This document shows, in pieces, positions 37,753-58,703 of a stretch of DNA of 64,000 nucleotides (position 1 is its first letter; every line of letters starts with the position of its first letter). The position numbers were made by a program, and so were the translations under genes. Below the pieces are notes generated by a model. That model searched no databases. It saw only the letters and a list, made by a program, of their open reading frames with translations, and was not told the DNA's origin. The stretch is from Thiosulfativibrio zosterae. GTDB lineage: Bacteria; Pseudomonadota; Gammaproteobacteria; Thiomicrospirales; Thiomicrospiraceae. The stretch is from contig NZ_AP021888.1 in NCBI RefSeq assembly GCF_011398155.1, forward strand, positions 1,285,501-1,349,500. Reading direction: 5' to 3'.

Positions 37753-37773
37753 GCAAAAAAGCCCCTAAAACTA

Positions 37774-38433: not shown

Positions 38434-38733
38434 CCCTTGAGTGAGCTTAACTGCCATTGAGCTACATTTGGGTGTCGCAAAGCCTTTGAACATGAGAGCT
38501 GCCTGATCATTAACCGCATTTTGTTGGTGAATTTTGGCAGAGTTATTCAGATTTATTGGTAAACTTCGTCTTTTAAATGACAAGACCGACAACGCAATGC
38601 CACAGTAAGCCATTTTTAATATCCTAATGGCTCAGCGTTTAAAGTCTGCGCACTCAAACTTTTACGACAGCCCATCAAAGGTGATAGGTTAAACCGCCAT
38701 CAAATTAAAATTTCTATACCTACAGGGAAAACC
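38434..38733. other. 300-bp gap before the GH15-like gene
   Basis: No supported gene. A 73-codon minus-strand frame covers much of it (38392-38613) but overlaps the histidine phosphatase end and shows no family features. A promoter for the downstream gene must lie here, but I could not place it. Confidence 0.5.
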
Positions 38734-41922: not shown

Positions 41923-41961
41923 TTTGCGCTGATTGAGTCGCATTACAATCAAGGAGTGAAG

Positions 41962-42945
41962 ATGAAACAAATTCTAGCCGGAGATATTGGTGGCACTAAA
42001 ACCGTGTTGGCGCTCTATCAGGTCAGCGATGACGGACTTAAAGAAGTTAAAAAATCCATGTTTGCCAGTGGCCAGCATGAACACTTTGAAGATTTATTGC
42101 GAGAGTTTTTGGGTTCCGCTACTCAAATCGATATGGCCTGTTTTGGGATTGCGGGCCCCATTAAAGAGCAGCGCTGTATTACAACCAACTTGCCTTGGAC
42201 GATTGATGCCTTAGAAATCAGTCAAAGCCTAAAAATCCCTAAAGTACATTTGTTAAATGATTTAGAAGCCGCTGCTTATGGTATTTTGCAGTTGAATCAG
42301 TTTCATGAACTAAACCCTTCTGCAATTGAAAGAGCAGGGCATATCGGTGTCATAGCGGCGGGAACAGGCTTGGGTCAAGCCGTTTTATTTTTTGACGGTA
42401 AAAAACACCATGCCATGCCATCAGAAGGGGGGCACTGTGACTTTGCGCCACAAAGTCTGCAAGAAGATCAATTGCTCGTCTTTTTAAGAGAACGCTTTAA
42501 GGGGCATGTCAGCCTTGAGCGAATTTTGTCTGGTGATGGCTTTGGTCACCTGTATGACTTTTTAAAAGCGTCAGGTTTTGCTCAAGTGAATCCAGAACTA
42601 GAGGCGAAAATGCAAACGGGTGACCGCAATGCCTTGATTAGCCAAATGGGACTGGAACAATCAGACCCAATATGCACAGAAGCCTTGCGCCTGTTTTGCA
42701 GAATTTACGGCGCAGAAGCAGGAAATCTCGCGCTAAAAGTATTGCCATTGGGCGGGGTTTATATTGCCGGCGGCATTGCACCGAAAATTCGTCAAGCACT
42801 GGAGTCCGGTATTTTTATGGAAGGGTTTTTAGACAAAGGTCGTATGACAAGAGCGATTGAACAGATACCCGTTAGAATCGTCGATGACCCAGAAGCACCA
42901 CTGTTAGGAGCAGCCTACTTTGCCAAAGTGTCTTTAAAAGATTAA
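41962..42945 (+). CDS. glk: Glucokinase
   Basis: 327 residues from the ATG at 41962. AAGGAG at 41951-41956 is its RBS, so an upstream in-frame GTG inside that RBS is rejected. ATP-binding GDIGGTKTVLALY, LLNDLEAAAYG with the catalytic Asp, VIAAGTGLGQA, and EGGHCDF (glucose-contacting Glu-His). It is the Glk family, not ROK. It makes glucose-6-phosphate from ATP and glucose, in an operon with the GH15-like protein. Confidence 0.93.
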   Translation: MKQILAGDIGGTKTVLALYQVSDDGLKEVKKSMFASGQHEHFEDLLREFLGSATQIDMACFGIAGPIKEQRCITTNLPWTIDALEISQSLKIPKVHLLNDLEAAAYGILQLNQFHELNPSAIERAGHIGVIAAGTGLGQAVLFFDGKKHHAMPSEGGHCDFAPQSLQEDQLLVFLRERFKGHVSLERILSGDGFGHLYDFLKASGFAQVNPELEAKMQTGDRNALISQMGLEQSDPICTEALRLFCRIYGAEAGNLALKVLPLGGVYIAGGIAPKIRQALESGIFMEGFLDKGRMTRAIEQIPVRIVDDPEAPLLGAAYFAKVSLKD

Positions 42946-42992
42946 ATTGTTCCAAGTAAAAGCCTCAATTGACTTAATTTGACATAAAAATA

Positions 42993-43004
42993 ACCAGGCC
43001 TGGT
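42993..43004. repeat. Iterated palindrome ACCAGGCCTGGT, copy 6
   Basis: Exact copy 48 bp after the glk stop, at the left border of the degraded mobile region. It is extended to TAACCAGGCCTGGTTA. Confidence 0.95.
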
Positions 43005-43028
43005 TATGGTTGCGTATTCAAGCGTTAG

Positions 43029-43181
43029 TATCTTCCAAAGGGAACCGACTTTAATCAAGTTACCCATAAACAGATAGATTTTGTTATGAACAGGCTAAAC
43101 ACTCGTCGTCGAAAAACACGAGATGGAAAACAACCCGCTGAGTTATTTTTAGGAAAAGCTGTTGATTTATTCGCTGCTTAA
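43029..43181 (+). pseudogene. IS30-family transposase C-terminal remnant
   Basis: The frame reads YLPKGTDFNQVTHKQIDFVM and continues NRLNTRRRKTRDGKQPAELF to a TAA. This is the conserved C-terminus of IS30-type transposases (YLPKGTDF; LN-RPRK; P-E-F). An in-frame TAG at 43026 sits where the family has Gln (R-Q-YLPKG), and nothing recognisable lies upstream. About 50 codons remain of roughly 340. Confidence 0.8.
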
Positions 43182-43628
43182 ATGAAGTTGCACTTAATAT
43201 GCGAATTCAAGATTAATAAACTACGCCATAAAAATGAATACCCAACTACAAATCCTCTATCAGACAAGGTTATTGAGCTTTTAAAATGTTGGCATGAGCA
43301 AAATGGTTCACCTCAATATGGATACGTGTTTGCAAATCCATCCACGGGAAAACCATTTTTACGTTTATACAAACCTTGGGAAAAGATTAAAGCCTTGGCT
43401 CAACTTCCAAATGAGCTTGAAAACTATACTTTAAGGCATAATTTTATCAGCCAGCTAGTAATGAATGGCGCAAACTTACTCAGTATCGCCAAGCTTGCAA
43501 CCACCAGCGTAGAAATGATTGAACAACATTACGGCCATCTTCAGCCAGATCTACAAACAAGATATATTAATGACTTTGCCAATCAAACCGATAATAAAAT
43601 TATCCAACTGGATAAAGTGGCGGTATAA
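43182..43628 (+). pseudogene. Tyrosine recombinase (integrase) fragment, C-terminal half only
   Basis: 148 codons. The end is a phage-integrase catalytic domain: PLSDKVIELLKCWHEQNG and YVFANPSTGKPF, then YTLRHNFISQLVMNGANLLS with Arg-His, and the nucleophile Tyr in EQHYGHLQP. The N-terminal binding domain and first catalytic Arg region are missing, and the frame starts at the junction with the IS30 remnant. It is probably inactive. What it once mobilised may include the toxin-antitoxin genes after it. Confidence 0.8.
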
Positions 43629-43631
43629 TCA

Positions 43632-43940
43632 ATGATAATTAAAAAATTTAGATTGGATGGAGGCTATCCCTTTGATGAAAGCCTTGCACAAATTAAAGAC
43701 CCATTGGCTAAGTCACGCGTCTTAGCCAGATTACGCCGACTAGAACTTGATAATCGCGGAGACTTTAAAAATATTGAAGGCTCTCTCTACGAATTGCGCA
43801 TAGACGTTGGCCAAGGCTGGCGCGTTTATTATCAGCAAAAAGGAGATGAGCTTGTTTTGCTTTTCTTAACGGGAAACAAATCAACCCAATCTAAAGACAT
43901 TGAAAAAGTAAAAGGATGGATTCATGAACAATCAAACTGA
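43632..43940 (+). CDS. HigB/RelE-superfamily toxin (HI1419-like)
   Basis: 102 residues. RelE-fold landmarks are SRVLARLRRLELDNRGDFKNI, LYELRIDVGQGWRVYYQ and LLFLTGNKSTQSKDI, typical of the phage-derived Gp49/HigB-like or HI1419 family. Such toxins cleave mRNA at the ribosome. It starts 3 bp after the integrase fragment and overlaps the antitoxin gene by 17 bp, with the toxin gene first, as usual for this family. Confidence 0.88.
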   Translation: MIIKKFRLDGGYPFDESLAQIKDPLAKSRVLARLRRLELDNRGDFKNIEGSLYELRIDVGQGWRVYYQQKGDELVLLFLTGNKSTQSKDIEKVKGWIHEQSN

Positions 43941-44208
43941 AGAAGATTTTAAAGTTTCAGATTATCTTCAAACCGCAGAGGATGTTAAAAATTATCTTCA
44001 AGCGGCTCTTGATGAAAACGACCCTGCTTTTTTTGTTGATGCGCTTGGAGTTGTCAGCAAATCAAAGGGGATGAAGCAAATTTCAGAACAAACTGGGCTT
44101 GGTTATCAAAGCCTTTATAAATCATTTGGCGAAGGTAAACACCCACGCTTTGAAACTGTTTACAAAGTCGTTCAAGCGCTAGGGCTAAACTTTAAATTAG
44201 TTGTATAA
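43924..44208 (+). CDS. Antitoxin of the HI1420 / HTH family
   Basis: 94 residues. The N-terminal part (KVSDYLQTAEDVKNYLQAALDENDPAFFVDALGVVSKSKGM) and the HTH (ISEQTGLGYQSLYKSFGEG) are typical of COG3636 antitoxins. It neutralises the preceding toxin and probably represses the operon. An RBS (GGATGG) lies within the toxin gene. Confidence 0.88.
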   Translation: MNNQTEEDFKVSDYLQTAEDVKNYLQAALDENDPAFFVDALGVVSKSKGMKQISEQTGLGYQSLYKSFGEGKHPRFETVYKVVQALGLNFKLVV

Positions 44209-44269
44209 TCATATCCTTAAATAAAATACCTACCTTATTTATAAATAATGTTGCATAACTTTAAAAAAA

Positions 44270-44425
44270 TATAGATAAAAGTCCTTGAGAACATCCGTCT
44301 AAAATTTGGGGTGTATTTAGAAGTTCGCCTTGTGCGTTTCGGTCAGCCACTAAAAACCAAATGCTGGGACGTCCAAGGCATTGTTGAAAACGCTGGGCTT
44401 TGACGAGTGACCAAATCAATTAATT
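44270..44425 (-). pseudogene. Unidentified C-terminal protein fragment
   Basis: A minus-strand frame open after a TAA near 44425 reads LIWSLVKAQRFQQCLGRPSI and continues FLVADRNAQGELLNTPQILD to a stop near 44270. It has protein-like composition but no start codon and overlaps the IS481-type remnant in another frame. I do not recognise it. It may be the tail of a gene cut by the insertion. Confidence 0.3.
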
Positions 44426-44597
44426 GGTCATTTCGATAGCTTCTCCAGCGGTTAATATCTTCAATATTCAGTTTTCGTGACTTGTTATTAAAGTTAGCAA
44501 TCAGCAATTTTGAGTAGTTATCGACAAAGGTTTGTTGATAGATTCTGCCAACACCTTTTAAGGTGCCAACATAGATTCTTTTTGATGCTTCGCTCAC
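44343..44597 (-). pseudogene. IS481/IS3-type transposase fragment
   Basis: 84 codons. IYVGTLKGVGRIYQQTFVDNY matches the start of the rve integrase core of IS481-like transposases, where the Asp of VD(N/T)YS is the first catalytic residue. After about residue 35 the sequence no longer looks like transposase. The rest of the element is missing. It abuts the 3' end of the CopD-like gene. Confidence 0.75.
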
Positions 44598-45064
44598 ACC
44601 CCTAAATAAGGGCCTGAAACGCCTATTATCGCCTCAAGAACCCCTAAGCTAAGGTTAATCGCAATGACTGGACGCATTTTTTGGTTCATTAATTTTCCTG
44701 CCTCAGGAAATTGTTGCTCCGCCACCAAGGTTTTAAACTTGGCAAACGGCACAAAATACAACCAAGCAAACAATACAATCATCAGCCAACCAATCCACTG
44801 CATGGCATGCAGATAGAGCGGCATGTGTGCTAAGTCGCCAAAACGGGCAAACCAGTCCCAATAGCCTGAGATAATCAGCGCAAAAATAAAGCCCCATACC
44901 CACGGGAAAAATCGCCCAAAAGCGTTCACCCAGAGTTGCAATCGCACAGGGGGTTCAAGCATCATCGCCGCAGGACGCAAAACACGATACGCGAAGAAAA
45001 TACCGCCCACCCACAAAACCGCCGCAACGGTATGAATCGACATCATTATGCTGTCAAAGACCAT
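44594..45064 (-). CDS. CopD-like integral membrane protein
   Basis: 156 residues with four TM helices. MSIHTVAAVLWVGGIFFAYRVLRPAA and the conserved FGRFFPWVWGF are typical of CopD-domain proteins. Several His and Trp residues lie near the membrane face. It may take part in copper or haem handling; there is no direct evidence. It starts 11 bp after the sulfurtransferase gene, so the two form an operon. The C-terminus ends cleanly just before the IS fragment. Confidence 0.75.
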   Translation of the reverse strand: MVFDSIMMSIHTVAAVLWVGGIFFAYRVLRPAAMMLEPPVRLQLWVNAFGRFFPWVWGFIFALIISGYWDWFARFGDLAHMPLYLHAMQWIGWLMIVLFAWLYFVPFAKFKTLVAEQQFPEAGKLMNQKMRPVIAINLSLGVLEAIIGVSGPYLGV

Positions 45065-45075
45065 AAAACACTCCT

Positions 45076-45924
45076 TTAAAATGGCAGTCCTTCTTCAATC
45101 GGCAACTCAGGGTTTCGTGACCATTCGTTCCAAGAACCAAAGTAGAGTTTTACATTATTCACACCCGCGGACTTCAGTGCAACCAAGGTATTAGAGGCGC
45201 GCGCACCTTTAAAGCAATACAAATAGACTGCAGAATCTTTGGTAATGCCCACGGTTTTACATTCGGCCAAAATTTCATCGGGGGTTTTTAATAAAGGCAC
45301 TTTGCCAGGTTTCATCATGCGATACCATTCAATCCAAACTGCGCCTGGCAATCTGCCTTTGCGTGGGCAAAACTCTTTGCCGTAAGGCGAAGAACTGTCG
45401 GCAATCCATTCATCGACATCGCGCACATCCAACAAGACAATGTCCGTTCCAAGCGCTTTTAGAACCGCTTCTTGATCCACCATTAAACTGTCACCCGTGT
45501 CTTTCACTGGGAAGGATTTGGCGGCGGGCATCACCGGTTCCATATTGATTGGGTAACCACCTGCTAACCAAGATTGGTACCCTCCGTGCAAAATGCTAAT
45601 TTTTTCATACCCTAAATAACCCAATATAAAATAACCACGGCAAGACTGACCAAAGCCCGTGTCCATTGAGTCTTCATAAAACACCGCGGTTTCGCTGCCC
45701 GATAAGCCCGCATCCCCAAACGCTTTGGCAAAGGTGGCTTTTAATTCTGCCAGGCCTTCTGGGCTAGACATGGCGAGATGAGTAAAAATACTGTGAATGT
45801 TGACGGCACCAGGAATATGACCTTGTTCAAAAGCCTCTGCTGAGCGGGTATCAATAATCACAACTGGCTCACGGTCAATCATTTGCGCCAAACTTGAAGC
45901 ATTAATCAGTAATGGGGTGGACAT
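45076..45924 (-). CDS. Two-domain sulfurtransferase (rhodanese)
   Basis: 282 residues from the ATG at 45924, which has AAGGAG 8 nt upstream; a six-codon extension is not supported. There are two rhodanese domains. The N-terminal one lacks the catalytic Cys; the C-terminal active loop is Cys237-Phe-Lys-Gly-Ala-Arg. A basic loop residue favours thiosulfate over mercaptopyruvate as donor. It can transfer sulfane sulfur to cyanide, giving thiocyanate. It is two genes away from a cyanate operon, which may be relevant. Confidence 0.9.
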   Translation of the reverse strand: MSTPLLINASSLAQMIDREPVVIIDTRSAEAFEQGHIPGAVNIHSIFTHLAMSSPEGLAELKATFAKAFGDAGLSGSETAVFYEDSMDTGFGQSCRGYFILGYLGYEKISILHGGYQSWLAGGYPINMEPVMPAAKSFPVKDTGDSLMVDQEAVLKALGTDIVLLDVRDVDEWIADSSSPYGKEFCPRKGRLPGAVWIEWYRMMKPGKVPLLKTPDEILAECKTVGITKDSAVYLYCFKGARASNTLVALKSAGVNNVKLYFGSWNEWSRNPELPIEEGLPF

Positions 45925-46303
45925 TTTCTTTCTCCTTAACATTCAACCTTATTGGGTTGGTTTAGCTGATTTAAAATGCATCCCCACGCTGGGTGCTAAC
46001 ACAACAATCGTGTATTTTTCTATCTTAAAAGCAGGCAATAGACCACCAAAGCAATACGGTTAGATATCAATAAGTTATTAAAAATCATTAGGTTATTCCC
46101 ATTTATTTATGTTTTTAAATGTAGATAAATGACAACATTAGGCAACAAACAAGAACATTCCAGTCTCTCGAAGTTGATTTTTCACCAGAACAGAAATTTA
46201 ATTAGACTGTCGTTTTTAGAAATGTTGCGCCATTAAACTGTTCCAGTCTAATAATACCGAACACCTTTTTTGATAATCATCTTAAAGGGCTTAAATTTTG
46301 TTT
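45925..46303. other. Intergenic region with a 9-bp inverted repeat
   Basis: 380 bp without a gene, between the sulfurtransferase start and the sigma-54 activator stop. ATTAGACTG (46201-46209) and CAGTCTAAT (46244-46252) form an inverted repeat, and another TTCCAGTCT lies at 46158. These could be a remnant of IS ends or regulator sites. The sulfurtransferase promoter should lie near the left end. Confidence 0.4.
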
Positions 46304-48190
46304 TTAGTTGATGTATTGATGTCTATTAATTTGATATTTTTTAATGCGAGATGCAAGTGTGGTGGGTTTTATTTTTAATGCTTCTGCCGCGCCATTTTGT
46401 CCAAATATTTTGCCACGGCAAGCTTTAAGTGCATTAATAATATTTTGTTTATCTAGGTTCGATAGTTCTTGTTTAGTTTGTATTTGAAATGTATTTTCAA
46501 TGTCGTTTTTTAAGGATGTGTAGTTCTGATTTGTTAGCGGTAGATTTAACTCCAGACGCGAATCGGTAGCTAAAATGATACCTCTTTCAATGACATTTAG
46601 TAATTCGCGAATGTTTCCAGGCCATTGATAATCAATTAATTTCTGTATATCACCTACGGTTAGTTGAATATTTGGTTTTACAAACTTTTTACGGGCAATT
46701 TTTAATAAGTGGTTAGCTAATAATGGAATATCTTCAGTCCTTTCACGCAGTGGGATTGACTCTATTGGGAAAACATTCAGTCTGAAAAACAAATCTTCTC
46801 GAAACTGTTTTTTTGCGACTTCTTCTTTTAAGTCTCGATTAGTTGCGGCAATGATTCTTACATCAACAGAGCGTGTTTTAGATTCACCGACGCGTTCAAA
46901 TTGCTGTTCTTGAAGTACACGCAATAGTTTTCCTTGTAACTCAAAAGGTATTTCACCGACTTCATCTAAAAAAAGCGTTCCGCCATTTGCTAACTCAAAA
47001 CGTCCTGCACGGTCATTTATTGCACCAGTAAAAGCCCCTTTAACATGACCGAAAAATTCACTCTCAAAGAGTTCTCTAGGGATAGAGGCGCAGTTCACTC
47101 TAATGAGTGGACGATTTTTGTGCTGACTACTATCATGAATTGCTCTGGCAATCAGTTCCTTACCTGTGCCTGACTCGCCACTAATGAGTACGCTAGCATC
47201 TGTAGGTGCAACCAGTTCAATTTGTTGAATGACTTTACGAATTGCGAGGCTTTTGCCAACAATTTCTTTATAGTGATGTTCTTCGCGATATTCTTCTTGT
47301 AAATAGGCATTTTCAAGTTCTAATCGTTTCTTTAGAGATTGCACTTCATTTAAGGCTTCGTGAAGTTTTCTTTCTGCAAGCTTCCTCTCGCTAACATCGC
47401 GAAAAATAACCACTGCACCTATGAGTTGATGGTTATCCATAATGGGCGTACTCGTGTATTCGACCGGAATAGGGTAATTATTTTTATGCCAAAAAATTTC
47501 ATTATCTACATGACGCACTTCACCATCCCTAAAGGCTGCATAGATATGACAGTTTTTGCTTTCATAGTGATTCCCATCCTCACGGCTATGGTGAATCATT
47601 TCATGCATGCTTTTACCTATCAGTTCTTCAGATTTCCAACCCAATATTTTTTCAGCCGCTGGGTTTATGAAAGTAGTTTTTCCGTGAATGTCCACACCGT
47701 AAATGCCTTCACCAGCGGCCTCAAGAATAAGTTTATTTTCGTGTTCAAACTCACGAAAAATATGCTCTATGGTTTTCCAGTGTTCCAATCCATTTTGATG
47801 TAAAAATTTAGCGTCTGATTTAATCCGCCTGCGATTTATTTCTTGTTGGCTTTGTAGCGTAAGGCAAATAAACTCTTTTCTTTGATTGCTATTTTGGGAT
47901 ATTTTTCCCGCACTAACCTCGAGATAAATCGGTTGATCATCATTAAATTGGATGTGTAAATCTCTTGTCCAAGCGGTTGTTTTAATAAGTGCTTCTTCAG
48001 TAAAAGTGAACAGAGTAGGGATGCAGTGCCGAAATAATTGAGTTGCTTTTAAAGTTGTGAGTGTTTTATTTGATTGCTTTAGTAAAGCTTCAGCAGCTAG
48101 ATTTACATAACAAATTTCATCCTTTACTGGGTCGATAATAATCATTGCATTAGGATTTTTGTTAAATGCATCACTAAAAATTTGAGACAT
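46304..48190 (-). CDS. Sigma-54-dependent activator with PAS sensors, adjacent to cyanate operon
   Basis: 628 residues. An N-terminal PAS-like region (about 1-115), a second PAS (about 155-270, [20 protein letters not shown]) and a coiled coil precede the AAA+ domain. That domain has Walker [15 protein letters not shown] for sigma-54 contact, and [10 protein letters not shown] Fis-type HTH is at the C-terminus ([19 protein letters not shown]). It has no receiver domain, so it senses its signal itself through the PAS domains. It is divergent from the cyanate operon, which has a -24/-12 promoter, so it is the likely regulator. Confidence 0.93.
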
Positions 48191-48274
48191 GTTTAGACTC
48201 TTTCAAAAAGTATGATTGTATTAAATGAGTGCAAATGAGCGCGTTTTAATAAACAAAGCAAGGCTTATACCGAT

Positions 48275-48327
48275 TACGAAATTTAGTAGTAGTGTTACGA
48301 AAAATTGTACTTTAACGAAAATTTGTA
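48275..48327. promoter_or_regulatory. Three TAC-N8-GTA dyads, candidate enhancer sites
   Basis: TACGAAATTTAGTA (48275-48288), TACGAAAAATTGTA (48296-48309) and AACGAAAATTTGTA (48314-48327) share the TAC-N8-GTA form (AAC in the third). They are spaced 21 and 18 bp apart. They lie about 95-150 bp upstream of the inferred start of the cyanate operon, the usual distance for enhancers of sigma-54 activators. Confidence 0.5.
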
Positions 48328-48396
48328 GTTATTTAGACGGTTGTTTTTAATGTAAAAATTCATGTTAAACAATTGGTTAAAAGTATTTTTATGTGC

Positions 48397-48411
48397 TGGC
48401 ATATCTTCTGC
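48397..48411 (+). promoter_or_regulatory. Sigma-54 (-24/-12) promoter of the cyanate operon
   Basis: TGGCATATCTTCTGC has the invariant GG (48398-48399) and GC (48410-48411) exactly 10 bp apart, as required for sigma-54. The expected start is near 48423, giving a leader of about 73 nt. The divergent sigma-54 activator gene makes the call strong. Confidence 0.75.
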
Positions 48412-48495
48412 TCAACATCTCATGATTTTAAAGAAATGAACACAATAGTTTAATTGCACCAAAATATTTACAAACCACGAGTCGAGGTATGAATC

Positions 48496-49962
48496 ATGTC
48501 ATTTAAAAGCTTGAACGATCCATTTAATGAAAAGAAAAGTTTGTTGCACAAAGCAGATTGCGATTGTCCAATTTGCAAAGTTGAATCATCACCGTTAAAT
48601 CCATCTCAAAAGCAGGCTGAAGTTGAGCGTTCTGTTTATGAGTCATCTATTCAAGTTTACGGTAGTCATGAAATGCCAGAGCATAATTCGGCTTTAGATA
48701 GTAATGAAGCCATTATGGACAGGGCAATTGAGAGTGCGGTTGTACGCTCGGTGTTTGGACACAATGAATTTAGTCGCCGTTCATTTTTAAGTATGGTTGG
48801 AGCCGGTACGGCTGCTGCGGTTTTGGGTACTGTATTCCCAATGGAGGAGGCCAAAGCCGCTTTGAAAGAATCTATGGGTATGGGAAAACTTGAAAAAAGT
48901 AAGCTCAACATAGGTTTTGTACCGATTACTTGTGCTACGCCAATTATTATGGCTCACCCAATGGGTTTTTATGAAAAAAATGGTCTTGATGTCAGTCTAA
49001 TTAAAACAGCTGGCTGGGCTGTGGCTCGTGATAAATCTTTAGCTAAAGAATATGATGCTGCACATATGTTGACACCTATGCCATTGGCAATGTCTATGGG
49101 GGCTGGTTCTACGGCTAAGCCATTCATTATGCCTACGGTTGAGAATATTAATGGTCAGGCAATAGTATTGCATGTTGATCACAAAGATAAGCGTGATCCA
49201 AAACAGTGGAAGGGCTTTAAGTTTGGCGTACCATTTGAGTATTCCATGCATAACTTCCTTCTTCGTTACTATGTTGCTGAACATGGTTTAGATCCAGATA
49301 AAGACATTCAAATTCGTGTCGTTCCACCACCAGAAATGGTTGCAAACTTACGAGCAGGAAACCTGGATGGTTACCTTTCACCTGACCCATTTAACCAGCG
49401 TGCAATTTGGGAAAAAGTCGGTTTTATTCATACATTAACTAAAGACATTTGGGAAGGACATCCTTGCTGTGCATTTGCCTGTAGCAAAGAGTTTGCTGTT
49501 GAAAACCCAAATACTTATGGTGCATTGTTAAGATCAATTATTGATGCAACTGAATATTCGGCCAAAGCTGAAAATCGCAAAGAAATATCTGCAGCGATTG
49601 CTCCTAAAAACTATCTAAATCAGCCTGTTCCAGTTATAGAGCAGGTATTAACGGGACGTTATGCTGATGGATTAGGTGGTGTTCAAAATGTTCCTGATCG
49701 AATCGATTTTGACCCTTTCCCATGGCATTCTATGGGTGTATGGATTCTAACGCAGATGAAGCGTTGGGGTTATATCGAAGGTAACATTGACTACAATAAA
49801 ATCGCCGAAGAAGTTTATTTAGCTGCTGAAACTGGGAAAGTTATGAAGGAGTTAGGTTATGCGCCTCCTGAAAAAACTTACAAAAACTACTTCATCATGG
49901 GCAAGGAGTTTGACTACAACAAGCCAGAAGAATATATCGCTAGTTTTGCAATTAAACGTTAG
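48496..49962 (+). CDS. cynA: Cyanate/nitrate-type ABC substrate-binding protein (NrtA/CynA)
   Basis: 488 residues. CmpA/NrtA-family binding protein: IGFVPITCATPIIMAHPMGF, GAGSTAKPFIMPT, FKFGVPFEYSMHNFLLRYY. The Tat motif SRRSFL is at residues 93-98, after an unusual N-terminal region of about 90 residues containing a Cys cluster CDCPIC (22-27). GAGG 8 nt before the ATG supports this start over an internal Met74. It binds cyanate (or nitrate) in the periplasm. The cyanase gene at the operon end favours cyanate. Confidence 0.88.
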   Translation: MSFKSLNDPFNEKKSLLHKADCDCPICKVESSPLNPSQKQAEVERSVYESSIQVYGSHEMPEHNSALDSNEAIMDRAIESAVVRSVFGHNEFSRRSFLSMVGAGTAAAVLGTVFPMEEAKAALKESMGMGKLEKSKLNIGFVPITCATPIIMAHPMGFYEKNGLDVSLIKTAGWAVARDKSLAKEYDAAHMLTPMPLAMSMGAGSTAKPFIMPTVENINGQAIVLHVDHKDKRDPKQWKGFKFGVPFEYSMHNFLLRYYVAEHGLDPDKDIQIRVVPPPEMVANLRAGNLDGYLSPDPFNQRAIWEKVGFIHTLTKDIWEGHPCCAFACSKEFAVENPNTYGALLRSIIDATEYSAKAENRKEISAAIAPKNYLNQPVPVIEQVLTGRYADGLGGVQNVPDRIDFDPFPWHSMGVWILTQMKRWGYIEGNIDYNKIAEEVYLAAETGKVMKELGYAPPEKTYKNYFIMGKEFDYNKPEEYIASFAIKR

Positions 49963-49984
49963 CAATAGTCATTAAACCCTGTGA

Positions 49985-50018
49985 CCAAGACTAAAGATAT
50001 TGATTATCTTAGTCTTGG
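49985..50018 (+). other. Hairpin between cynA and the permease gene
   Basis: CCAAGACTAA / TTAGTCTTGG, 10-bp perfect stem with a 14-nt loop, without a T run. It could stabilise the cynA mRNA 3' end or give partial termination, as often found after binding-protein genes. Confidence 0.55.
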
Positions 50019-50115
50019 CTTAACTGAGAATTTATGAGTGGCTTGCTACTCATGTTTTGTCTAAAAATTATTGATTATTTTAATTTGTGTGTAAAAGCTG
50101 TACTAGGAGTCTTAA

Positions 50116-50946
50116 ATGTTAAAATCGCTATCGCTTAGATCTGCACTGCTTTCAGTCGTCTTGTTAGCTGTTTTGCTGGGTTCTTGGGAGTTAATGAATC
50201 AAATTCCATCTGACAGCAAACCTATGACGGAATATGAAATGTTGATGGGTGGAGCCTCACAAGAAGCCCGTGTGCCGCCACCATCAGCAATTATTGAATT
50301 GGCAATAAAAGAACTGAGTGACCCTTTTTATGATGCTGGGCCAAATGATAAAGGAATCGGCATTCAGTTAGGGTATTCAATTTATCGTGTTTTGGTAGGT
50401 TTCTTTTTTGCTGCATTGATAGCCATTCCAGTCGGCTTTTTGATTGGAATGTCACCGTTAATGTATAACGCTCTAAATCCATATATTCAGGTTTTACGCC
50501 CCATTTCGCCTCTAGCTTGGATGCCTTTAGCACTCTTCATTATCAAAGACTCAGAAACGTCAGCAATATTTGTGATTTTTATTTGCTCTATATGGCCGAT
50601 GTTATTGAATACTGCGTTTGGTGTATCAAATGTTCGCAAAGATTGGATTAATGTTGCTAAAACTCATGAACTTAGTCCTATTAAGACAGCTTTATTAGTT
50701 ATTTTGCCAGCGGCTGCCCCAACAATTTTAACGGGGATGCGCATTTCAATTGGGATTGCCTGGTTGGTTATCGTTGCAGCAGAAATGTTGGTTGGTGGAA
50801 CGGGTATAGGTTATTACGTTTGGAATGAATGGAATAACTTGGATCTTGCCAGTGTCATTTTTTCAATCCTGATGATTGGTTTGGTTGGCATGCTTTTGGA
50901 TATGTTTTTGGCTTATGCCGCATTGTTAGTTGAATATAAAGAATAG
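50116..50946 (+). CDS. cynB: Cyanate ABC transporter permease (NrtB/CynB)
   Basis: 276 residues. Permease of the nitrate/sulfonate/taurine family with about six TM helices and the conserved EAA loop (NVAKTHELSPIKTALLVILPAAAPTILTGMRISIG), which contacts the ATPase. The N-terminal periplasmic stretch with KPMTEYEMLMGG is shared by NrtB proteins. It forms the membrane channel for the binding protein encoded before it and the ATPase encoded after it. Confidence 0.9.
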   Translation: MLKSLSLRSALLSVVLLAVLLGSWELMNQIPSDSKPMTEYEMLMGGASQEARVPPPSAIIELAIKELSDPFYDAGPNDKGIGIQLGYSIYRVLVGFFFAALIAIPVGFLIGMSPLMYNALNPYIQVLRPISPLAWMPLALFIIKDSETSAIFVIFICSIWPMLLNTAFGVSNVRKDWINVAKTHELSPIKTALLVILPAAAPTILTGMRISIGIAWLVIVAAEMLVGGTGIGYYVWNEWNNLDLASVIFSILMIGLVGMLLDMFLAYAALLVEYKE

Positions 50947-50954
50947 GATTGCGC

Positions 50955-51806
50955 ATGACATCAAAATTTCTTGAAGTACAAGGGTTAAAAAAGAGTTATC
51001 CGGGACAAAATAAGTCGGAATCTGTAACCATCTTTGAAAATGCCAATTTTAATATTGAAAAAGGGGAGTTTGTCTGTGTCATAGGACATTCTGGTTGTGG
51101 AAAATCAACAATTTTGAATATTTTGGCAGGTTTAGACGATGCCTCGGATGGGATTGTTTTAATGAATGGTCGAGAGGTTTCCGGCCCAAGTCTTGATCGA
51201 GGTGTTATTTTTCAAAACTACAGCTTATTGCCATGGCGTACTGCCTTGCAAAATATAACTTTTGCAGTGCAGGCTAGATGGCCGAACTGGAGTAAAGAAG
51301 ATGTCTTGGCTCATAGCCAAAAATATTTAGATTTGGTGGGGCTTAAAGATGCCATACATAGAAAGCCGTCTCAACTTTCTGGGGGAATGCGTCAACGTGT
51401 TAGCATTGCGCGTGCGTTTGCTACTCAGCCTCAATTGTTGCTTATGGATGAACCATTTGGGGCTTTAGATGCTTTGACAAGAGGGGTCATTCAAGAGGAG
51501 TTAATTAAGATTTGGAGTGAGGACAAGCAAACCGTATTTATGATTACCCATGATGTTGATGAGGCCATTTTGCTGTCAGATAGAATTTTATTAATGACGA
51601 ATGGTCCAAAGGCAAGAATTGCGGAATCCGTAAAAATATCGATACCAAGACCTCGAACACGCACGGATATTATTCATCATCCAAATTACTACAAAACCCG
51701 TAATCATTTGGTTGATTTTTTAGTTAACCGCTCCAAAACCCTTTCGGGTGAAAATCAAGAAACCGTTATAGGTAATTATCCAAAAGAAGTCATTTTTCAT
51801 GATTAA
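50955..51806 (+). CDS. cynD: Cyanate ABC transporter ATPase (NrtD/CynD)
   Basis: 283 residues from the ATG at 50955; an earlier TTG at 50949 is not preferred. Walker A IGHSGCGKSTILN, Q loop FQNYSLLPWRT, signature LSGGMRQRVSIARA, Walker B LLLMDEPFGALD, and H loop ITHDVDEA. It is NrtD-like, lacking the fused binding domain of NrtC. It powers uptake with the permease. It starts 8 bp after the permease stop. Confidence 0.92.
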   Translation: MTSKFLEVQGLKKSYPGQNKSESVTIFENANFNIEKGEFVCVIGHSGCGKSTILNILAGLDDASDGIVLMNGREVSGPSLDRGVIFQNYSLLPWRTALQNITFAVQARWPNWSKEDVLAHSQKYLDLVGLKDAIHRKPSQLSGGMRQRVSIARAFATQPQLLLMDEPFGALDALTRGVIQEELIKIWSEDKQTVFMITHDVDEAILLSDRILLMTNGPKARIAESVKISIPRPRTRTDIIHHPNYYKTRNHLVDFLVNRSKTLSGENQETVIGNYPKEVIFHD

Positions 51807-51864
51807 TATCCATAGGGTATTAGAGTTTAAATCTTAAAGTTAAAAGTAAAAAGAGGGGGATACG

Positions 51865-52305
51865 ATGACTAAAATTGAAATGACAGAAGCGATTATTCTT
51901 GCCAAAGCATCAAAGAATGTAGGCTGGTCTGAAATTGCTGCCGCGACAGGATTGAGTGAAGTTTATACAACCTCTGCTTGTTTGGGTATGAATCACTTAG
52001 ATTCTGAACCAGCAGCAAAATTATGTAATTTTTTAGGTTTAGACTCCACTGTAGAGGACACACTAAAAGCCTTTCCTCATAAGTCTTGGGATAAACTAGT
52101 GCCAACAGATCCATTAATTTATCGGCTATACGAAATTGTCGGCGTATATGGTCCGACTATGAAAGAGTTAATTCATGAAAAGTTTGGGGATGGCATTATG
52201 AGTGCTATCGACTTTACAATGGATATTGAAAAAGAAAAAAATCCAGCAGGAGACCGCGTGGTGATTACAATGAATGGTAAGTTTTTAGCTTATAAAGCTT
52301 GGTAA
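51865..52305 (+). CDS. cynS: Cyanase (cyanate hydratase)
   Basis: 146 residues. The N-terminal helical HTH-like region (LAKASKNVGWSEIAAATGLS) precedes the C-terminal catalytic domain. Its active-site residues Arg87, Glu90 and Ser113 correspond to E. coli Arg96, Glu99 and Ser122 (IYRLYEIVGVYGPTMKELIHE; GDGIMSAIDF). It converts cyanate and bicarbonate to ammonia and CO2. It is the last gene of the cynABDS operon, with a strong RBS (AGAGGGGG). No cynT carbonic anhydrase is next to it. It gives the cell a nitrogen source, and the CO2 can feed carbon fixation. Confidence 0.96.
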   Translation: MTKIEMTEAIILAKASKNVGWSEIAAATGLSEVYTTSACLGMNHLDSEPAAKLCNFLGLDSTVEDTLKAFPHKSWDKLVPTDPLIYRLYEIVGVYGPTMKELIHEKFGDGIMSAIDFTMDIEKEKNPAGDRVVITMNGKFLAYKAW

Positions 52306-52331
52306 TATTTCGAGAATATATTAAAAGTATT

Positions 52332-52538
52332 GATGATTTTCTTGCTCTATCCTGTCCCAAGGCGCAATTAAGTCATCAAATACTGATTAGACCCACTTCA
52401 ACCCGATCTTTAATCACCTTGCCTGATGGAATGATTTGAAACAAGTCGCCGTTTTCGCCTAGCAATACAGTTTGTGCCAGTTGGTGTTCTTTAATTAACT
52501 GTGCGTGGGCTTGTAAGTCAATGGCTTCGCCATGTACC
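52332..52538 (-). pseudogene. Duplicated 3' end of the RNase J-like gene
   Basis: This 207-bp segment matches 56933-57139 at an offset of exactly 4601 bp, with 7 differences by hand count and no gap. It contains the last 54 codons of the RNase J-like gene plus 44 bp downstream, and breaks off abruptly at CATGTACC. The copies are direct repeats that flank the kinase/REC-EAL pair. Confidence 0.9.
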
Positions 52539-52699
52539 CTATTCGTAAAAAAGTAGAGCAAGAAGCCGCTTTTAAACTCCCTGTTAAAACCTATCAGGCA
52601 CTTGGCTACGCCTGCAGCCGTATGTCTTTTAAAGGCTTGGGTGGTCGTTCTTTTAGCCCCTTTAATCAATCAAAACCATGGGGTTTTAAAAAAAAATAG
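52532..52699 (+). pseudogene. 55-codon ORF, probable C-terminal gene fragment
   Basis: The ATG is supplied by the duplicated RNase J segment. The frame then reads PIRKKVEQEAAFKLPVKTYQ and ends SKPWGFKKK. It is basic and protein-like but I do not recognise it. It is probably the 3' end of a gene fused to the repeat by rearrangement; a small real protein cannot be excluded. Confidence 0.35.
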
Positions 52700-53027
52700 A
52701 AAAAAAATTAGTTTTTGACCATAAAAAATTGTGTTTTTTAGTTATTTCAGTTAACTTTCTTTAGATTTTTCTAAAAATCTGCAACTGCTTGGTAAGCACA
52801 TAAATTAAATATGTCTAAAATTGATTAGCTGTCTTTGAATAGCTTGCCGATAACTTGTTATTGGCCACAATTTTTCGATTAAATCAGACAAATTTTTAAA
52901 CATTTTTTATCGATCAGTCGTGCAAAGCACATTCAACATTTCATAAAGGTGAATCTATTTGTAATGGGTTCGCGACTTAAAGCTGTTTTTTCAATTTAAC
53001 GGATTGAATTTAGGAGATGCCAAACTC
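52700..53027. other. AT-rich intergenic region upstream of the hybrid kinase
   Basis: About 330 bp, very AT-rich, without a supported gene. The promoter of the kinase/REC-EAL operon is expected here. TAGGAG at 53011-53016 is the RBS. Confidence 0.5.
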
Positions 53028-55676
53028 ATGACGCCAATATTTAAAAAGCAACTGATGTTTGCGCTACCTATTTTTTTAATTATTTTAGGGTTAATGCTCG
53101 CGGTATTTGAAATTGATCAGTCCTTGCGTGAAAAGACCATTATTCACAACTTTAAAAATGACACCAAACACATCGCGGAACACATTCAAAACCATTTGGT
53201 TGGGGTGAATTCTGATGTGCTATTTCTTGCCGCGCAAAAAAAAGCTTTGGGGACGTTATGCTACCAACATGAAGATAAACTGTCCAGCGGCTTGTCTGCT
53301 GAGTATTTGAAATTTATGGAACTCAATCCTCAGTATATTCAATTACGCTTAATTGACCTTATGGGGCAAGAAGTGGTTAGAGTTGACCGTATCCAAGATC
53401 AAGTCATTGCGACTCCTTATGAGGCTTTGCAAGACAAATCAGGGCGCTATTACTTTAAGGAAGCCGAGCATATTACCCCAGGCACTGTCTACCAGTCTTT
53501 ATTTGATTTAAATATAGAGCAGGGTGTGATTGAGCGGCCATTTAAACCCACAATTCGTTTTTTAAGCCCAGTGGTGGATGAACTTAATAAAACGGTGGGG
53601 TTTGTGGCGCTCAATTTAGACGCTTCTCGCCTATTAAATGAGCTTGAAATCTTTGCAAAAAATAGCAAAGGTGATGTTTATTGGGTGAATCGCAATGGCT
53701 ATTATTTTATGAGCCCAGATGAAAGCCAAAACTGGGGTTTTATGTTTGGTAAAACGGCTTGGAGCCTAGCTTCCGAGTTTGCAGATGTTTGGAGAAACTT
53801 GCCTAACATAGATGCTCAGGGAGACTTGTTAGATAACTCAGTCTTTTATCAGCTAGAGGTTTTAAATAGTCAAACGCCTATGTCAGCTGAGCAATTTAAT
53901 TATCATCAATTGCCTAATCAGGGGGCAGATATGCCTTGGTATGTGGTTGGTCGTTTAAATTTAAATGACTTGCCTGATTTGGTTTGGTGGCAACACTATT
54001 GGCCGTTGGTATTTTCCGCCTTATTAGCGCTGGTTTTATTATTTTTACTCAGATTGACGAGTCGCTTGGTGACAACGGTTTCAGAGCTGTCGCGTCGTGA
54101 GTCTGCATTAGTTGAGTCGCAAAATGCGGTGATGCAATCACAAACGCGATTCAAAGAATTGTTTGAAGCCGTCCCCGTTGGGTTGATGATTATTAATCAA
54201 CATGGACAGGTTGAGTCGAGCAATCAACAAATTAAACAATTACTTAATCTGAGCTTACCAAGTAGGCCTGATGAACAATTGACTAATTTGGTAAAAGAAC
54301 TCTTTAAGTTTGCTTTGCACCAAACGCTAGAGGATTTTTTTGCGGCGCCTAAAAGAGTTGAGGTCTTGCGTGATAACCCCTTTGTTTGCAGCTGCGATGG
54401 TGACATTCAAAAGTTTTTTGAGGTGATTATTGATCCTTTGTCTTATGGGCAAGAGCAGTTAGCGATTGTGGTGATGCGCGATGTGACTTCGGGGTTACAG
54501 ATAGAAGATCAACTGCGACAAAGTCAAAAAATGGAAGCGATTGGGCAACTCACCGGTGGCATTGCTCACGATTTTAACAATATGCTGGGTATTGTAATGG
54601 GCAATTTAGAGTTGTTAAAATTGAACTCAGAACAGGACGAAAAACAGCTAACTCGCATTGATAATATGATGACCGCCCTTAAAAATGCTGCCAGTTTAAC
54701 TCAGAAGTTGTTGGGTATTTCGCGCAAAAAAACGTTGAAGATTGAAACCATTGATGTGTCTTTGTTGATGAATGAAGTGCTTGAAATGTTGCATCGCACT
54801 ATTAAACATCGCATCCAAATTCACTATCAGTCTGGGTCTGATTTACCGCTTATTCGGGTGGATGCATCCGAATTATTGAATGCGTTGATTAATCTAGCCG
54901 TCAATGCTAAGGATGCCATGCCGGACGGGGGCAGTATATTTATCAAAACTGAGCGCGTTTATTTGGATGAAGCTTATGTGAATTCAATAGCCGAAAGTAT
55001 TCCAGAGGGTGAATATTTAAAAATTGAAGTTGAGGATACCGGTAGCGGCATTCCGCCAGAAATCATTGATAAGGTTCTAGAGCCTTTTTATACCACTAAA
55101 GAGATAGGTAAGGGCACGGGATTAGGCTTGGCGATGGTTTACGGGTTTATCAAACAATCTAATGGACACATGCATATTTATAGTGAGGTTGGCAAGGGTA
55201 CCAATATTCACATCTATTTACCGGTAGTAGAGGATGGCAGCTTAAAAACCCTTAGCGCAACGCCTAGCACACAATCATTAATACATTTGGCAGGAAAAAA
55301 AGTATTGGTTGTGGATGACGAAATTCACTTAGCAAGCATTTTAAAAGACTATTTGTTGTTGGATGGTATGGAATGTGATTTGGCTTTTACAGGTGACCAG
55401 GCCTGGTTGAATTTAACCCAAAAAAGTTACGATTTGGTGATTTCTGATATCGTGATGCCCGGCAAAATTGATGGTATAAAACTGGCTGAATTGATTCTAA
55501 CCCTAAAGCATCCTATGCCGGTGATTTTATGCAGTGGTTTTTCGAGTGATTTATTGGTGAAGCAACACCTAATGAATGGAGACATTTTATTTATTAAGAA
55601 ACCTTATTCGCGCGATATTGTTCAACAAACGGTACTTAAGGCATTTAAATGCTTAGGAGCCAATCATGCCAGCTAA
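53028..55676 (+). CDS. Hybrid sensor histidine kinase (Cache-PAS-HisKA-HATPase-REC)
   Basis: 882 residues from the ATG at 53028 after TAGGAG. TM at about 7-25, large periplasmic Cache-like sensor (about 35-315), second TM (about 320-345), PAS (about 375-490). The phospho-acceptor His is in IGQLTGGIAHDFNNMLG, an ATPase domain has GIPPEI and GTGLGLAM, and a C-terminal receiver (about 755-880) has DIVMPGK and KKPYS. It senses an external signal and may phosphorylate its own receiver or the next gene's product, whose start it overlaps by 11 bp. Palindrome copy 7 lies in the receiver. Confidence 0.93.
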   Translation: MTPIFKKQLMFALPIFLIILGLMLAVFEIDQSLREKTIIHNFKNDTKHIAEHIQNHLVGVNSDVLFLAAQKKALGTLCYQHEDKLSSGLSAEYLKFMELNPQYIQLRLIDLMGQEVVRVDRIQDQVIATPYEALQDKSGRYYFKEAEHITPGTVYQSLFDLNIEQGVIERPFKPTIRFLSPVVDELNKTVGFVALNLDASRLLNELEIFAKNSKGDVYWVNRNGYYFMSPDESQNWGFMFGKTAWSLASEFADVWRNLPNIDAQGDLLDNSVFYQLEVLNSQTPMSAEQFNYHQLPNQGADMPWYVVGRLNLNDLPDLVWWQHYWPLVFSALLALVLLFLLRLTSRLVTTVSELSRRESALVESQNAVMQSQTRFKELFEAVPVGLMIINQHGQVESSNQQIKQLLNLSLPSRPDEQLTNLVKELFKFALHQTLEDFFAAPKRVEVLRDNPFVCSCDGDIQKFFEVIIDPLSYGQEQLAIVVMRDVTSGLQIEDQLRQSQKMEAIGQLTGGIAHDFNNMLGIVMGNLELLKLNSEQDEKQLTRIDNMMTALKNAASLTQKLLGISRKKTLKIETIDVSLLMNEVLEMLHRTIKHRIQIHYQSGSDLPLIRVDASELLNALINLAVNAKDAMPDGGSIFIKTERVYLDEAYVNSIAESIPEGEYLKIEVEDTGSGIPPEIIDKVLEPFYTTKEIGKGTGLGLAMVYGFIKQSNGHMHIYSEVGKGTNIHIYLPVVEDGSLKTLSATPSTQSLIHLAGKKVLVVDDEIHLASILKDYLLLDGMECDLAFTGDQAWLNLTQKSYDLVISDIVMPGKIDGIKLAELILTLKHPMPVILCSGFSSDLLVKQHLMNGDILFIKKPYSRDIVQQTVLKAFKCLGANHAS
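55396..55407. repeat. Iterated palindrome ACCAGGCCTGGT, copy 7 (inside hybrid kinase)
   Basis: Exact copy in the receiver domain of the kinase, read GAC-CAG-GCC-TGG (Asp-Gln-Ala-Trp), the same frame as copy 4. Confidence 0.95.
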
Positions 55677-56856
55677 AGTTTTTGTATTAGATGATGAGTC
55701 TTTGTATGGACAGATGATTGCTGAGTTTGCTGATTTGTATCACCTAACAACCATTGCGCATGACGATGCCAGCAATTTGGAAACGCTGTTAACAGGTATT
55801 GATGATTTTAGTTTGTTCTTTTTAGATTTGCACATGCCCAAACACGATGGCATAGAGGTGTTACGCTTACTTGAGTCCTCGGGTTATCAAGGCAAAATTG
55901 TTTTAATGAGTGGATTTGATGAATCAGTATTGGCATCTGCGTATCACTTGGCAGTTACGCAAGGTTTGCGCGTAGTCGACACTTTAAGCAAGCCTTTTAA
56001 TTTGGATAAATTGCGCGGCATCTTGGCTGAGTTTGCCAGTGAAAAAAATCCGCCTAACTTACCAGTGCGACAGGCGTCAGCTGAGATCTCAAAACTTTCT
56101 CACGAAATGGTGATTAAGTCTTTGTATGAAGACAGGTTTATTTTGCATTATCAACCGCAAATTCGTTTGGTCGATCACAAATTGATTGGGCTAGAATGTT
56201 TGGTTAGGCTTAAAGGCGACCAGGGTTTGATTTACCCTGGGCAGTTTATAGAAGTGATTGAACAAAATGCCTTAACCAACTATTTGATTATGGCCGTGGT
56301 TAGGAAACTATGCGAGGATTACCAACGCTGTTTATCACAAATCCACGAGGTGACTTTTTCAATTAACGTGTCTGCGTTGGACTTAGATAATTTAACCTTT
56401 CCAGATTTTTTAGCAGACTTAATTGCTAAATGTCAGTTGTCACCTCAGCAAATCGTAATTGAAATTACTGAAAGTCGTGCGATAGAGCAAATCAAAATTG
56501 GATTGGATGTTTTGACTCGCTTACGTTTAAAAGGGTTTCATTTATCGATTGATGATTTTGGCACTGGCACAGCTGTACTAAGTAATATTAAAAATATGCC
56601 GTTTAATGAACTCAAGATTGATAAGTCTTTTGTGGATAGGCTTACTCGTGATGGGAGGACTAATCAATTAACACAAGATTTGATTCATATGGCGCACAAT
56701 TTAAAGTTGATGACCGTGGCTGAGGGTGTTGAGAATATCGAATCCTTAAATATTTTGAAAAAATTAGGTTGTCAAATCGTACAAGGTTATTACTTTGCCA
56801 AACCCATGGCAGCAGAAGACTTGATGAGTTGGGTTGCGCAAAATCAGTGGGATTAA
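55666..56856 (+). CDS. Response regulator with REC and EAL-type domains
   Basis: 396 residues. The receiver (1-120) has FVLDDES, the phospho-Asp in FLDLHMPKHDG and the Lys of LSKPF. The EAL domain (about 150-390) has ECL in place of EAL (GLECLVRL), keeping the catalytic Glu. DDFGTGTAV, ITES and AEGVEN are present. It may be an active or weakened c-di-GMP phosphodiesterase. The 11-bp overlap with the hybrid kinase and RBS GGAG make it the partner of that kinase. Confidence 0.92.
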   Translation: MPAKVFVLDDESLYGQMIAEFADLYHLTTIAHDDASNLETLLTGIDDFSLFFLDLHMPKHDGIEVLRLLESSGYQGKIVLMSGFDESVLASAYHLAVTQGLRVVDTLSKPFNLDKLRGILAEFASEKNPPNLPVRQASAEISKLSHEMVIKSLYEDRFILHYQPQIRLVDHKLIGLECLVRLKGDQGLIYPGQFIEVIEQNALTNYLIMAVVRKLCEDYQRCLSQIHEVTFSINVSALDLDNLTFPDFLADLIAKCQLSPQQIVIEITESRAIEQIKIGLDVLTRLRLKGFHLSIDDFGTGTAVLSNIKNMPFNELKIDKSFVDRLTRDGRTNQLTQDLIHMAHNLKLMTVAEGVENIESLNILKKLGCQIVQGYYFAKPMAAEDLMSWVAQNQWD

Positions 56857-56932
56857 TTTGCGATTAGCGCTAAAAGTTTTACAATAATTTTTTACCAAAA
56901 TAAGCGTCCTTAAAGTTGTTTGAGGATTTCAG

Positions 56933-57139
56933 GATGATTCTATTGCTCTATCCAGTCCTAAGGCGCAATTAAGTCATCAAATACTGATTAGACCCACTTC
57001 AACCCGATTTTTAATCACCTTGCCTGATGGAATGATTTGAAACAAGTCGCCGTTTTCGCCTAGCAATACAGTTTGCGCCAGTTGGTGTTCTTTAATTAAC
57101 TGTGCGTGGGCTTGTAAGTGAATGGCTTCGCCATGTACC
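56933..57139. repeat. Right-hand copy of the 207-bp direct repeat
   Basis: The intact 3' end of the RNase J-like gene and 44 bp beyond it. The left-hand copy is at 52332-52538. Recombination between them would delete 4601 bp, including both signalling genes. Confidence 0.9.
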
Positions 57140-58341
57140 GGTATGACCAAGGGTGGTTTGAGGTGTTGATACAATTCTACGATGTCCTGTTGGCTTGGAT
57201 GGCCTGATACATGAAGATGCTTATCTTTGTATTCTTCGGCGTGAATGACCGTGATGCCTTGCAATTTAAAGGCCTGTATCAAGTTTTGAATACGCACAAG
57301 GTTGTCTGGAATTTTGTTAGCACTGAATATAATGCAATCCTCCGCTTCAAGCCCCATAAATCTAGAGTTATTTCGAGCTAAACGCCATAAACCTGAGTTG
57401 GGTTCTCCTTGCGAGCCAGTCGTGATAAGCATGACTTCATGGCGGGGTAAATAACCCAGTTCATAAGGCGATAGTGCTTGCAGGTCGGCAGGCCAGTACC
57501 CATGAGCCTTGGCAAGACTGAGCATTTGCTCCATCGCACGCCCCATCACTGCAAAATATCGTCCTGATGCCTTAGCAACCCTAGCCAAAGTGATTAAGCG
57601 CGCTAGATTACTGCTAAAGCAACTGACCACAACTCGGTAGGGTTGTTGTTGAACGGTTTCCAACAGATCAGCAAAGCAGGCACTTTCTGAAGGCGTTTTA
57701 CCAGGCTTTAAGGCGTTGGTCGAGTCACCAATCAGAGCAACCAAGTTTTTGATGTGACCAAACGGTTTAAAACTAAAAGGGGCTTCTAAAAGGGGATTGG
57801 CATCCATTTTCCAGTCGGCTGTGTGCAAAACAGTCCCCAAAGCCGTGGAAATCTGAAGACTATGAGATTGAACAATTGAATGAGTTACCGGTAACCATTG
57901 CACTTCAAAAAACCCAACCGTAACTGGGTTTAGGGTCGCAATGGTATAAAGAAATCGACTGATGTCCAACTCCGCCTGAGCAAACTTACGCTCAATCAAG
58001 GCAGCGCTAAAGGCACTGGCGTAGATAGGGACTTGAAGTTGTGGCCATACATGAACCAAAGCGCCTAAGTGGTCTTCATGGCCATGGGTAATCACTATGC
58101 CTTGTAAGCGATTTTTTTGGCTTAATAAAGGGCTAATGTCTGGCACAACGCGTTGGGTTTGAGTTATTTCATTTGGCAGGGATAAAAAGCCCATGCCACA
58201 ATCCACCATCAAGTATTGCCCTGCATGACCATAAATCATCAGGTTTTGACCAATCTCTCCCACACCGCCAAGGGGCAAGCACCAGAGCTCACGCGAAGAT
58301 GGAATGGGAAACTCTGGTTTTGTTGTAAAAAAATTCAGCAT
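56977..58341 (-). CDS. RNase J-like metallo-beta-lactamase / beta-CASP nuclease
   Basis: 454 residues, shorter than the about 555 of Firmicutes RNase J, so the C-terminal domain is missing or reduced. Metal motif THGHEDHLGA, LHTADWKMD, beta-CASP region (VVSCFSSNLARL), TGSQGEPNSGL, and HVSGHPSQQD and IPVHGEAIHLQAHA near the end. It probably degrades or processes RNA. Its 3' end is the source of the direct repeat at 52.3 kb. It is 53 bp downstream of a small acidic protein gene on the same strand. Confidence 0.88.
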   Translation of the reverse strand: MLNFFTTKPEFPIPSSRELWCLPLGGVGEIGQNLMIYGHAGQYLMVDCGMGFLSLPNEITQTQRVVPDISPLLSQKNRLQGIVITHGHEDHLGALVHVWPQLQVPIYASAFSAALIERKFAQAELDISRFLYTIATLNPVTVGFFEVQWLPVTHSIVQSHSLQISTALGTVLHTADWKMDANPLLEAPFSFKPFGHIKNLVALIGDSTNALKPGKTPSESACFADLLETVQQQPYRVVVSCFSSNLARLITLARVAKASGRYFAVMGRAMEQMLSLAKAHGYWPADLQALSPYELGYLPRHEVMLITTGSQGEPNSGLWRLARNNSRFMGLEAEDCIIFSANKIPDNLVRIQNLIQAFKLQGITVIHAEEYKDKHLHVSGHPSQQDIVELYQHLKPPLVIPVHGEAIHLQAHAQLIKEHQLAQTVLLGENGDLFQIIPSGKVIKNRVEVGLISI

Positions 58342-58394
58342 TATGTTGATTGATCAAAAATTCGTACACAAGAACCGGTTTTTAATTAACTTGC

Positions 58395-58703
58395 TTAATG
58401 CCCTTTGATTTGACTCACCGGGAAAAAATGCTTAAGCCCATAGGGGTTTTCGATTTCCTTTTCCATCAAGGATTCCATATCATCCATCAAACCAGGATAC
58501 AGCAAGTCATATACGGTATTTAACTTTTCCAAGTCATCGTCTTCAACCTGAACTTCAATGACCATGGCTTCATCATTTTCGAAATATAAAATACTCATCG
58601 ATTCCAAATTCATCTTATCGTTTTCAAAATCGTACTCATCTTCACATTCTTTAACAATCCAACCCATTTCATCGCTCCATCCAAACATTTTACGAATATT
58701 CAC
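58395..58703 (-). CDS. Small acidic protein of unknown function
   Basis: 102 residues, rich in Asp and Glu (CEDEYDFENDKMN, EVQVEDDDLEKLN), no signal or TM. I do not recognise a family. It lies between folD and the RNase J-like gene on the same strand. Confidence 0.6.
   Translation of the reverse strand: MNIRKMFGWSDEMGWIVKECEDEYDFENDKMNLESMSILYFENDEAMVIEVQVEDDDLEKLNTVYDLLYPGLMDDMESLMEKEIENPYGLKHFFPVSQIKGH

Follow-up and report, generated by a model that had tools for sequence, protein, structure and literature searches.

A hybrid kinase and REC-EAL pair between two copies of an rnj gene end in Thiosulfativibrio zosterae, a probable integration scar

When linear DNA homologous to the end of a gene entered Escherichia coli, 56 of 60 clones were PCR-positive for an insertion accompanied by partial duplication of that end, and the duplicated stretch measured 109-950 bp in the 14 clones that were sequenced (PMC3240628). 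The main route was partial degradation of the DNA, ligation to a circle, and a single crossover, and homology-facilitated illegitimate recombination was a minor one (4/60) (PMC3240628). The latter process has also been proposed for the T6SS and Rhs loci of Vibrio, which contain displaced 3' gene ends (PMC5361080). Among signalling systems, PvrS and PvrR of Pseudomonas aeruginosa PAPI-1 are a hybrid kinase and its REC-EAL phosphodiesterase neighbor, both encoded on accessory DNA (PMC2696094, PMC3842833), and PvrS is without its own Hpt domain (PMC2696094).

Here we describe a locus of T. zosterae, a bacterium of the sulfur-oxidizing type, in which a similar pair lies between two copies of the end of rnj. 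As in the E. coli pJA2 clones (PMC3240628), an insert is accompanied by partial duplication of a 3' end (207 bp here, against the range given above) and no integrase is found; recA-dependent recombination, by which pJA2 integrated, we also count as shared with the scar proposed below. The pJA2 case differs in that a conjugated plasmid was under selection and the clones lost gene function, whereas here the insert is natural and rnj is complete. The Vibrio loci (PMC5361080) are alike in that a module joins by way of shared gene sequence and the 3' end of the old gene is left as an orphan, but there the 3' part of the main gene was swapped, while here the same tail was kept and the orphan is nearly identical to it. 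The resemblance to PvrS/PvrR lies in the hybrid kinase lacking Hpt, the REC-EAL protein, and the accessory location; unlike in PAPI-1, neither fimbrial genes nor an rcs pair adjoin the pair.

The duplicated rnj end

The window, by which we mean the whole 64-kb stretch of DNA analyzed, lies in a host genome of 2.65 Mb assembled as a single contig. It holds one pair of direct repeats of at least 60 bp, the copies beginning at 52332 and 56933 (Table 1). A sequence-only reading of this DNA had described a gapless 207-bp repeat with its copies 4601 bp apart and about 7 mismatches. That description held to the base, with exactly 7 substitutions (96.6% identity), at 52339, 52341, 52353, 52358, 52408, 52475, and 52519 of the left copy, and the match of the second copy was well above chance level (E = 4e-95). 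The identical runs within the repeat include 49, 66, and 43 bp, 66 bp being the longest. As background we sampled 387 kb in other stretches of the same genome, and none of the other direct repeats inspected there duplicated a gene end at more than 95% identity; they were palindromic dispersed repeats, a tRNA-like exact repeat, paralogous genes, and one 84% pair. The dispersed palindromic repeats, found in several genome stretches (L209-L212, L226), have AGGCTAAAGCCT as their core, with a C-rich stretch after it. Elsewhere in the genome (L223 16821-17808), three near-identical small ORFs resembling those for carboxysome shell proteins were seen in tandem.

Table 1. Features of the locus, in window coordinates.
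Feature	Position	Strand	Description
Accessory region, ~25 kb	34010..58703		between soxB-like gene (to 33930) and folD (from 58817)
cynS (cyanase)	51865..52305	+	NCBIfam TIGR00673, 172.7 bits, above cut-off
Left repeat copy	52332..52538	-	truncated rnj 3' end, 54 codons, with 44 bp of downstream flank
Novel joint, rnj sequence to unrelated DNA	52538..52539		sharp; no extended match to the continuation of intact rnj
DNA after joint, ~160 bp	52539..52700		no homologue found, as DNA or as protein
Hybrid histidine kinase	53004..55676	+	periplasmic sensor domain, PAS, HisKA, HATPase_c, REC
REC-EAL protein, predicted cyclic-di-GMP phosphodiesterase	55666..56856	+	PF00563, 207 bits; PF00072, 45 bits
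Right repeat copy	56933..57139	-	functional rnj 3' end with 44 bp of downstream flank
rnj, RNase J-family beta-CASP ribonuclease, 454 aa, intact	56977..58341	-	PF22505, PF07521; TIGR00649

The repeat comprises the last 163 bp of rnj, stop codon included, and the 44 bp 3' of the stop. One copy had been taken for the functional 3' end and the other for a truncated one, and indeed the right copy completes the 454-aa frame and the left, which lies 26 bp past the cynS stop codon, retains 54 codons. At one position the left copy encodes D where all of the aligned intact sequences (7/7) have H, a change consistent with a dead copy. The rnj product carries metallo-beta-lactamase, beta-CASP, and RMMBL domains, the domain set of the RNase J family, and scored 312 bits against NCBIfam TIGR00649, under the 400-bit cut-off. 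Homologues in the family are 46-66% identical to it, the closest being that of Thiomicrospira microaerophila (65-66%). RNase J was patchy in the family, being found in 8 of the 35 other genomes searched, with differing neighbors in most; at the eight rnj loci examined in other genera of the family, the neighbors differ from those found here.

The joint at the inner border of the left copy (52538/52539) is sharp; the outer border, 52331/52332, is either an allele boundary or a second joint. Searches with the ~160 bp past the inner joint gave nothing useful as DNA in the same genome and 62 family genomes, as protein against plasmids and Pfam, or as exact 25-mers in viral contigs. Substitutions are denser in the flank (4/44) than in the coding part (3/163) of the repeat (Fisher p = 0.04). 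Their density near the point at which the sequences following rnj diverge, toward cynS or toward the REC-EAL gene, hints faintly at two alleles that had diverged before they were joined, and the same pattern could come from weaker constraint outside coding sequence. From the 3.4% divergence it follows that the copies either were different before joining or have been in the genome together for a while.

The kinase and REC-EAL proteins and their relatives

In the hybrid kinase, PF21623, PF02518, and PF00072 were detected above cut-off and the HisKA and PAS domains below it. The likelier start of its gene is the ATG at 53028, which is preceded by AGGAGA, and the gene overlaps that of the REC-EAL protein by 11 bp. 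In alignment the REC-EAL protein shows EAL catalytic motifs, namely E-C-L in place of E-A-L, SINVS, EITES, DDFGTG, the K in LKIDKSF, EGVE, and QGY. Its best PDB match was RocR (3sy8), with which it shares the REC-EAL architecture and catalytic motifs aligned along the chain but from which it is distant in sequence. We infer a phosphodiesterase that would be active in lowering c-di-GMP under control of the kinase.

A hybrid kinase with an adjacent REC-EAL response regulator is the arrangement of PvrSR-type systems, and PvrR was the best NCBIfam match of the REC-EAL protein, at 217.5 bits. The score falls short of the 580-bit equivalog cut-off, so that the protein is predicted to work like PvrR and is not classed as PvrR. 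Most likely, the cargo would work as a PvrS/PvrR-like pair in which a membrane hybrid kinase controls a phosphodiesterase that lowers c-di-GMP, and the signal probably passes from one to the other by way of a separate Hpt protein. RocS1, the partner of RocR, is by contrast an unorthodox sensor that carries an Hpt of its own (PMC2696094), a domain lacking from the kinase here. Searches of the unit for RNA families, promoters, and terminators gave nothing above cut-off, or matches scarcely above those in shuffled sequences.

The family comparison comprised 62 other genomes, all of other genera, the genus itself being represented by the window's own genome. The pair was found in 6 of the 62, namely G082, G034, G031 (two pairs), G012, G067, and, as a remnant, G030. 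Identities to the pair here were 35-43% for the kinase and 44-50% for intact REC-EAL proteins. Three of the pairs share one locus, by a yaaA-like gene, and the rest are at differing loci, that of G034 being situated among IS66 copies. None of the family relatives carrying the pair has it beside rnj. The module is accessory and position-variable across the relatives. Among 369 genomes of the class, no closer relative of the REC-EAL protein was found at E <= 1e-95. A viral origin of this protein was considered and rejected, the one match being to a distant EAL domain.

Two of the related loci showed features of their own. In G030 (L135 6972-7238), the REC-EAL gene beside the kinase gene is eroded to 88 codons, in which the start of REC is fused to the start of EAL. 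In the second pair of G031 (L139 3439-8512), the EAL protein has an extra C-terminal region of ~400 residues, and the pair adjoins homologues of the window genes at 4532-7506.

The surrounding region

The soxB-like gene, a cluster of tRNA-His, tRNA-Arg, and tRNA-Pro genes, and folD are contiguous in G027 and G033, two genomes of the group that is nearest by folD. Since the soxB-like gene and folD adjoin the tRNA cluster there and are ~25 kb apart here, the cassette lies in an accessory region. Beyond the tRNA cluster, the opposite flank varies by genome and in G030 holds apparent hydrogenase genes, as read from sequence. In the window, from 33930 to 60142, the orientation of the tRNA-Pro/Arg/His-folD block against its DUF5610-prfB neighbors is the reverse of that in two close relatives. 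Also inside the accessory region (window 43632-44208) are two small genes that resemble a toxin-antitoxin module of the Gp49/HI1420 type. A plasmid origin of the region was rejected for want of any match.

On the left of the repeat, cynS closes a cyanate/nitrate-type ABC transporter cluster at 48496-52305. A second cyanase gene of the genome, at L184 12224-12709, is 86% identical to cynS. The transporter cluster proteins are 90-96% identical to those encoded on a 4-kb contig (L191) of another genus, which also bears an IS110 transposase. Homologues of comEC and dprA, with scores above cut-offs, were found in the genome and make DNA uptake by the host plausible.

Origin and stability of the arrangement

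The insert lies between direct repeats of part of a resident gene, of which one copy completes the gene and the other is truncated, as expected of an integration scar. We consider it somewhat better than an even chance (roughly 55%) that the structure arose in this way, by entry of a ~4.6-kb fragment ending inside rnj into a chromosome carrying cynS-rnj, through ordinary recombination. The donor would have been a related strain in which the REC-EAL gene faces rnj, and in the recipient rnj would have faced cynS. The linear fragment would have consisted of the ~160 bp, the kinase and REC-EAL genes, and the last 207 bp of the rnj region. By one putative route the fragment circularized, with the rnj end joined to the 160-bp end at what is now 52538/52539, and a single crossover in rnj followed; by the other, it entered as linear DNA, recombining homologously within rnj and being joined illegitimately at the same point. 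Either route would give cynS, a truncated rnj tail, the cargo, and a whole rnj. Donor, direction, and route are what we infer from this arrangement. Because the repeat reaches through the stop codon and 44 bp beyond it, rnj stays whole and one novel joint is needed.

In favor of capture we counted the patchy occurrence of the pair at several loci of the family and the accessory state of the region relative to G027 and G033; against it we counted the ~160 bp by the joint without homologue and the composition of the module, which is not foreign-looking. The GC (0.39-0.40) and GC3 (0.39-0.41) of the module are near those of ordinary window genes, and composition was rejected as a sign of foreign origin. 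A scar of this kind falls within a familiar class of events, as its cargo does within a familiar class of signalling pairs, and leaves the general picture unchanged. It would offer a readable natural case in which a gene end takes on a signalling module, no integrase being involved and the gene remaining unbroken, and it predicts an exact deletion product.

An unlikely account, though the least so of those that compete with the scar, is that a 4.6-kb unit of the 160 bp, kinase, REC-EAL gene, and rnj tail was duplicated in tandem in place, after which most of the left unit was deleted down to the rnj tail by cynS. Tandem duplications are common and no donor is necessary, and the same joint at 52538/52539 and the same right-hand arrangement would result; yet this account requires a further event, which would place another arbitrary joint at 52331/52332, and left of the repeat there is no trace of another kinase or REC-EAL gene. 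A tandem duplication had been offered in the sequence-only reading as an alternative to the entry of an element. In its plain form it fails as a full account, since it would leave no unique DNA between the 207-bp copies, and it is possible with a second event, either deletion or insertion.

More doubtful is the mirror case, in which the kinase, REC-EAL gene, and rnj were resident and the cyanate cluster arrived with an rnj tail from a cynS-rnj strain. The cyanate cluster is itself accessory, given the second cynS and the protein match to the IS110-bearing contig, but DNA identity of the transporter cluster to that contig is just 78-80%, so the transfer is not a fresh one, and an extra joint is needed at the other end of the cyn cluster.

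Islands with tyrosine integrases typically target gene ends and restore the gene. A site-specific element that targeted the rnj 3' end with a replacement tail, and has since lost its integrase, would match this behavior and the variable position of the module in relatives. We regard it as improbable, since the relatives' pairs are not at rnj, no integrase remnant is found in the unit, and no att core can be delimited, the longest identical run lying inside a 97% repeat with scattered substitutions. The geometry had been read earlier as that of an element entering at a gene's 3' end and restoring it, with no integrase in the unit. Entry of DNA at the rnj 3' end with the gene left whole survives from that reading, and so does the lack of an integrase, neither an integrase nor a transposase gene being detected in the unit; an att-site element is not supported, given that lack, the scattered substitutions, and borders without inverted repeats. 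The ends of the unit bear neither an IS nor inverted repeats, in contrast to a composite transposon. An assembly or sequencing artefact is most improbable of all in a single-contig genome, with a repeat as short as 207 bp and 7 substitutions telling the copies apart.

Recombination between the repeats had been expected to remove the whole pair, and this is mechanically possible: a crossover would delete 4601 bp including the module and leave the 454-aa RNase J, full length in the predicted product. That the repeats form an inbuilt switch for excision, by which RecA recombination removes the pair in part of the population with rnj left whole, is in our estimate very unlikely; if true, it would mean heritable differences in c-di-GMP level and attachment. 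The 3.4% divergence speaks against an arrangement that is newly formed and flips freely. Among the predicted products, a crossover in the last 19 bp alone would bring the H to D change into RNase J.
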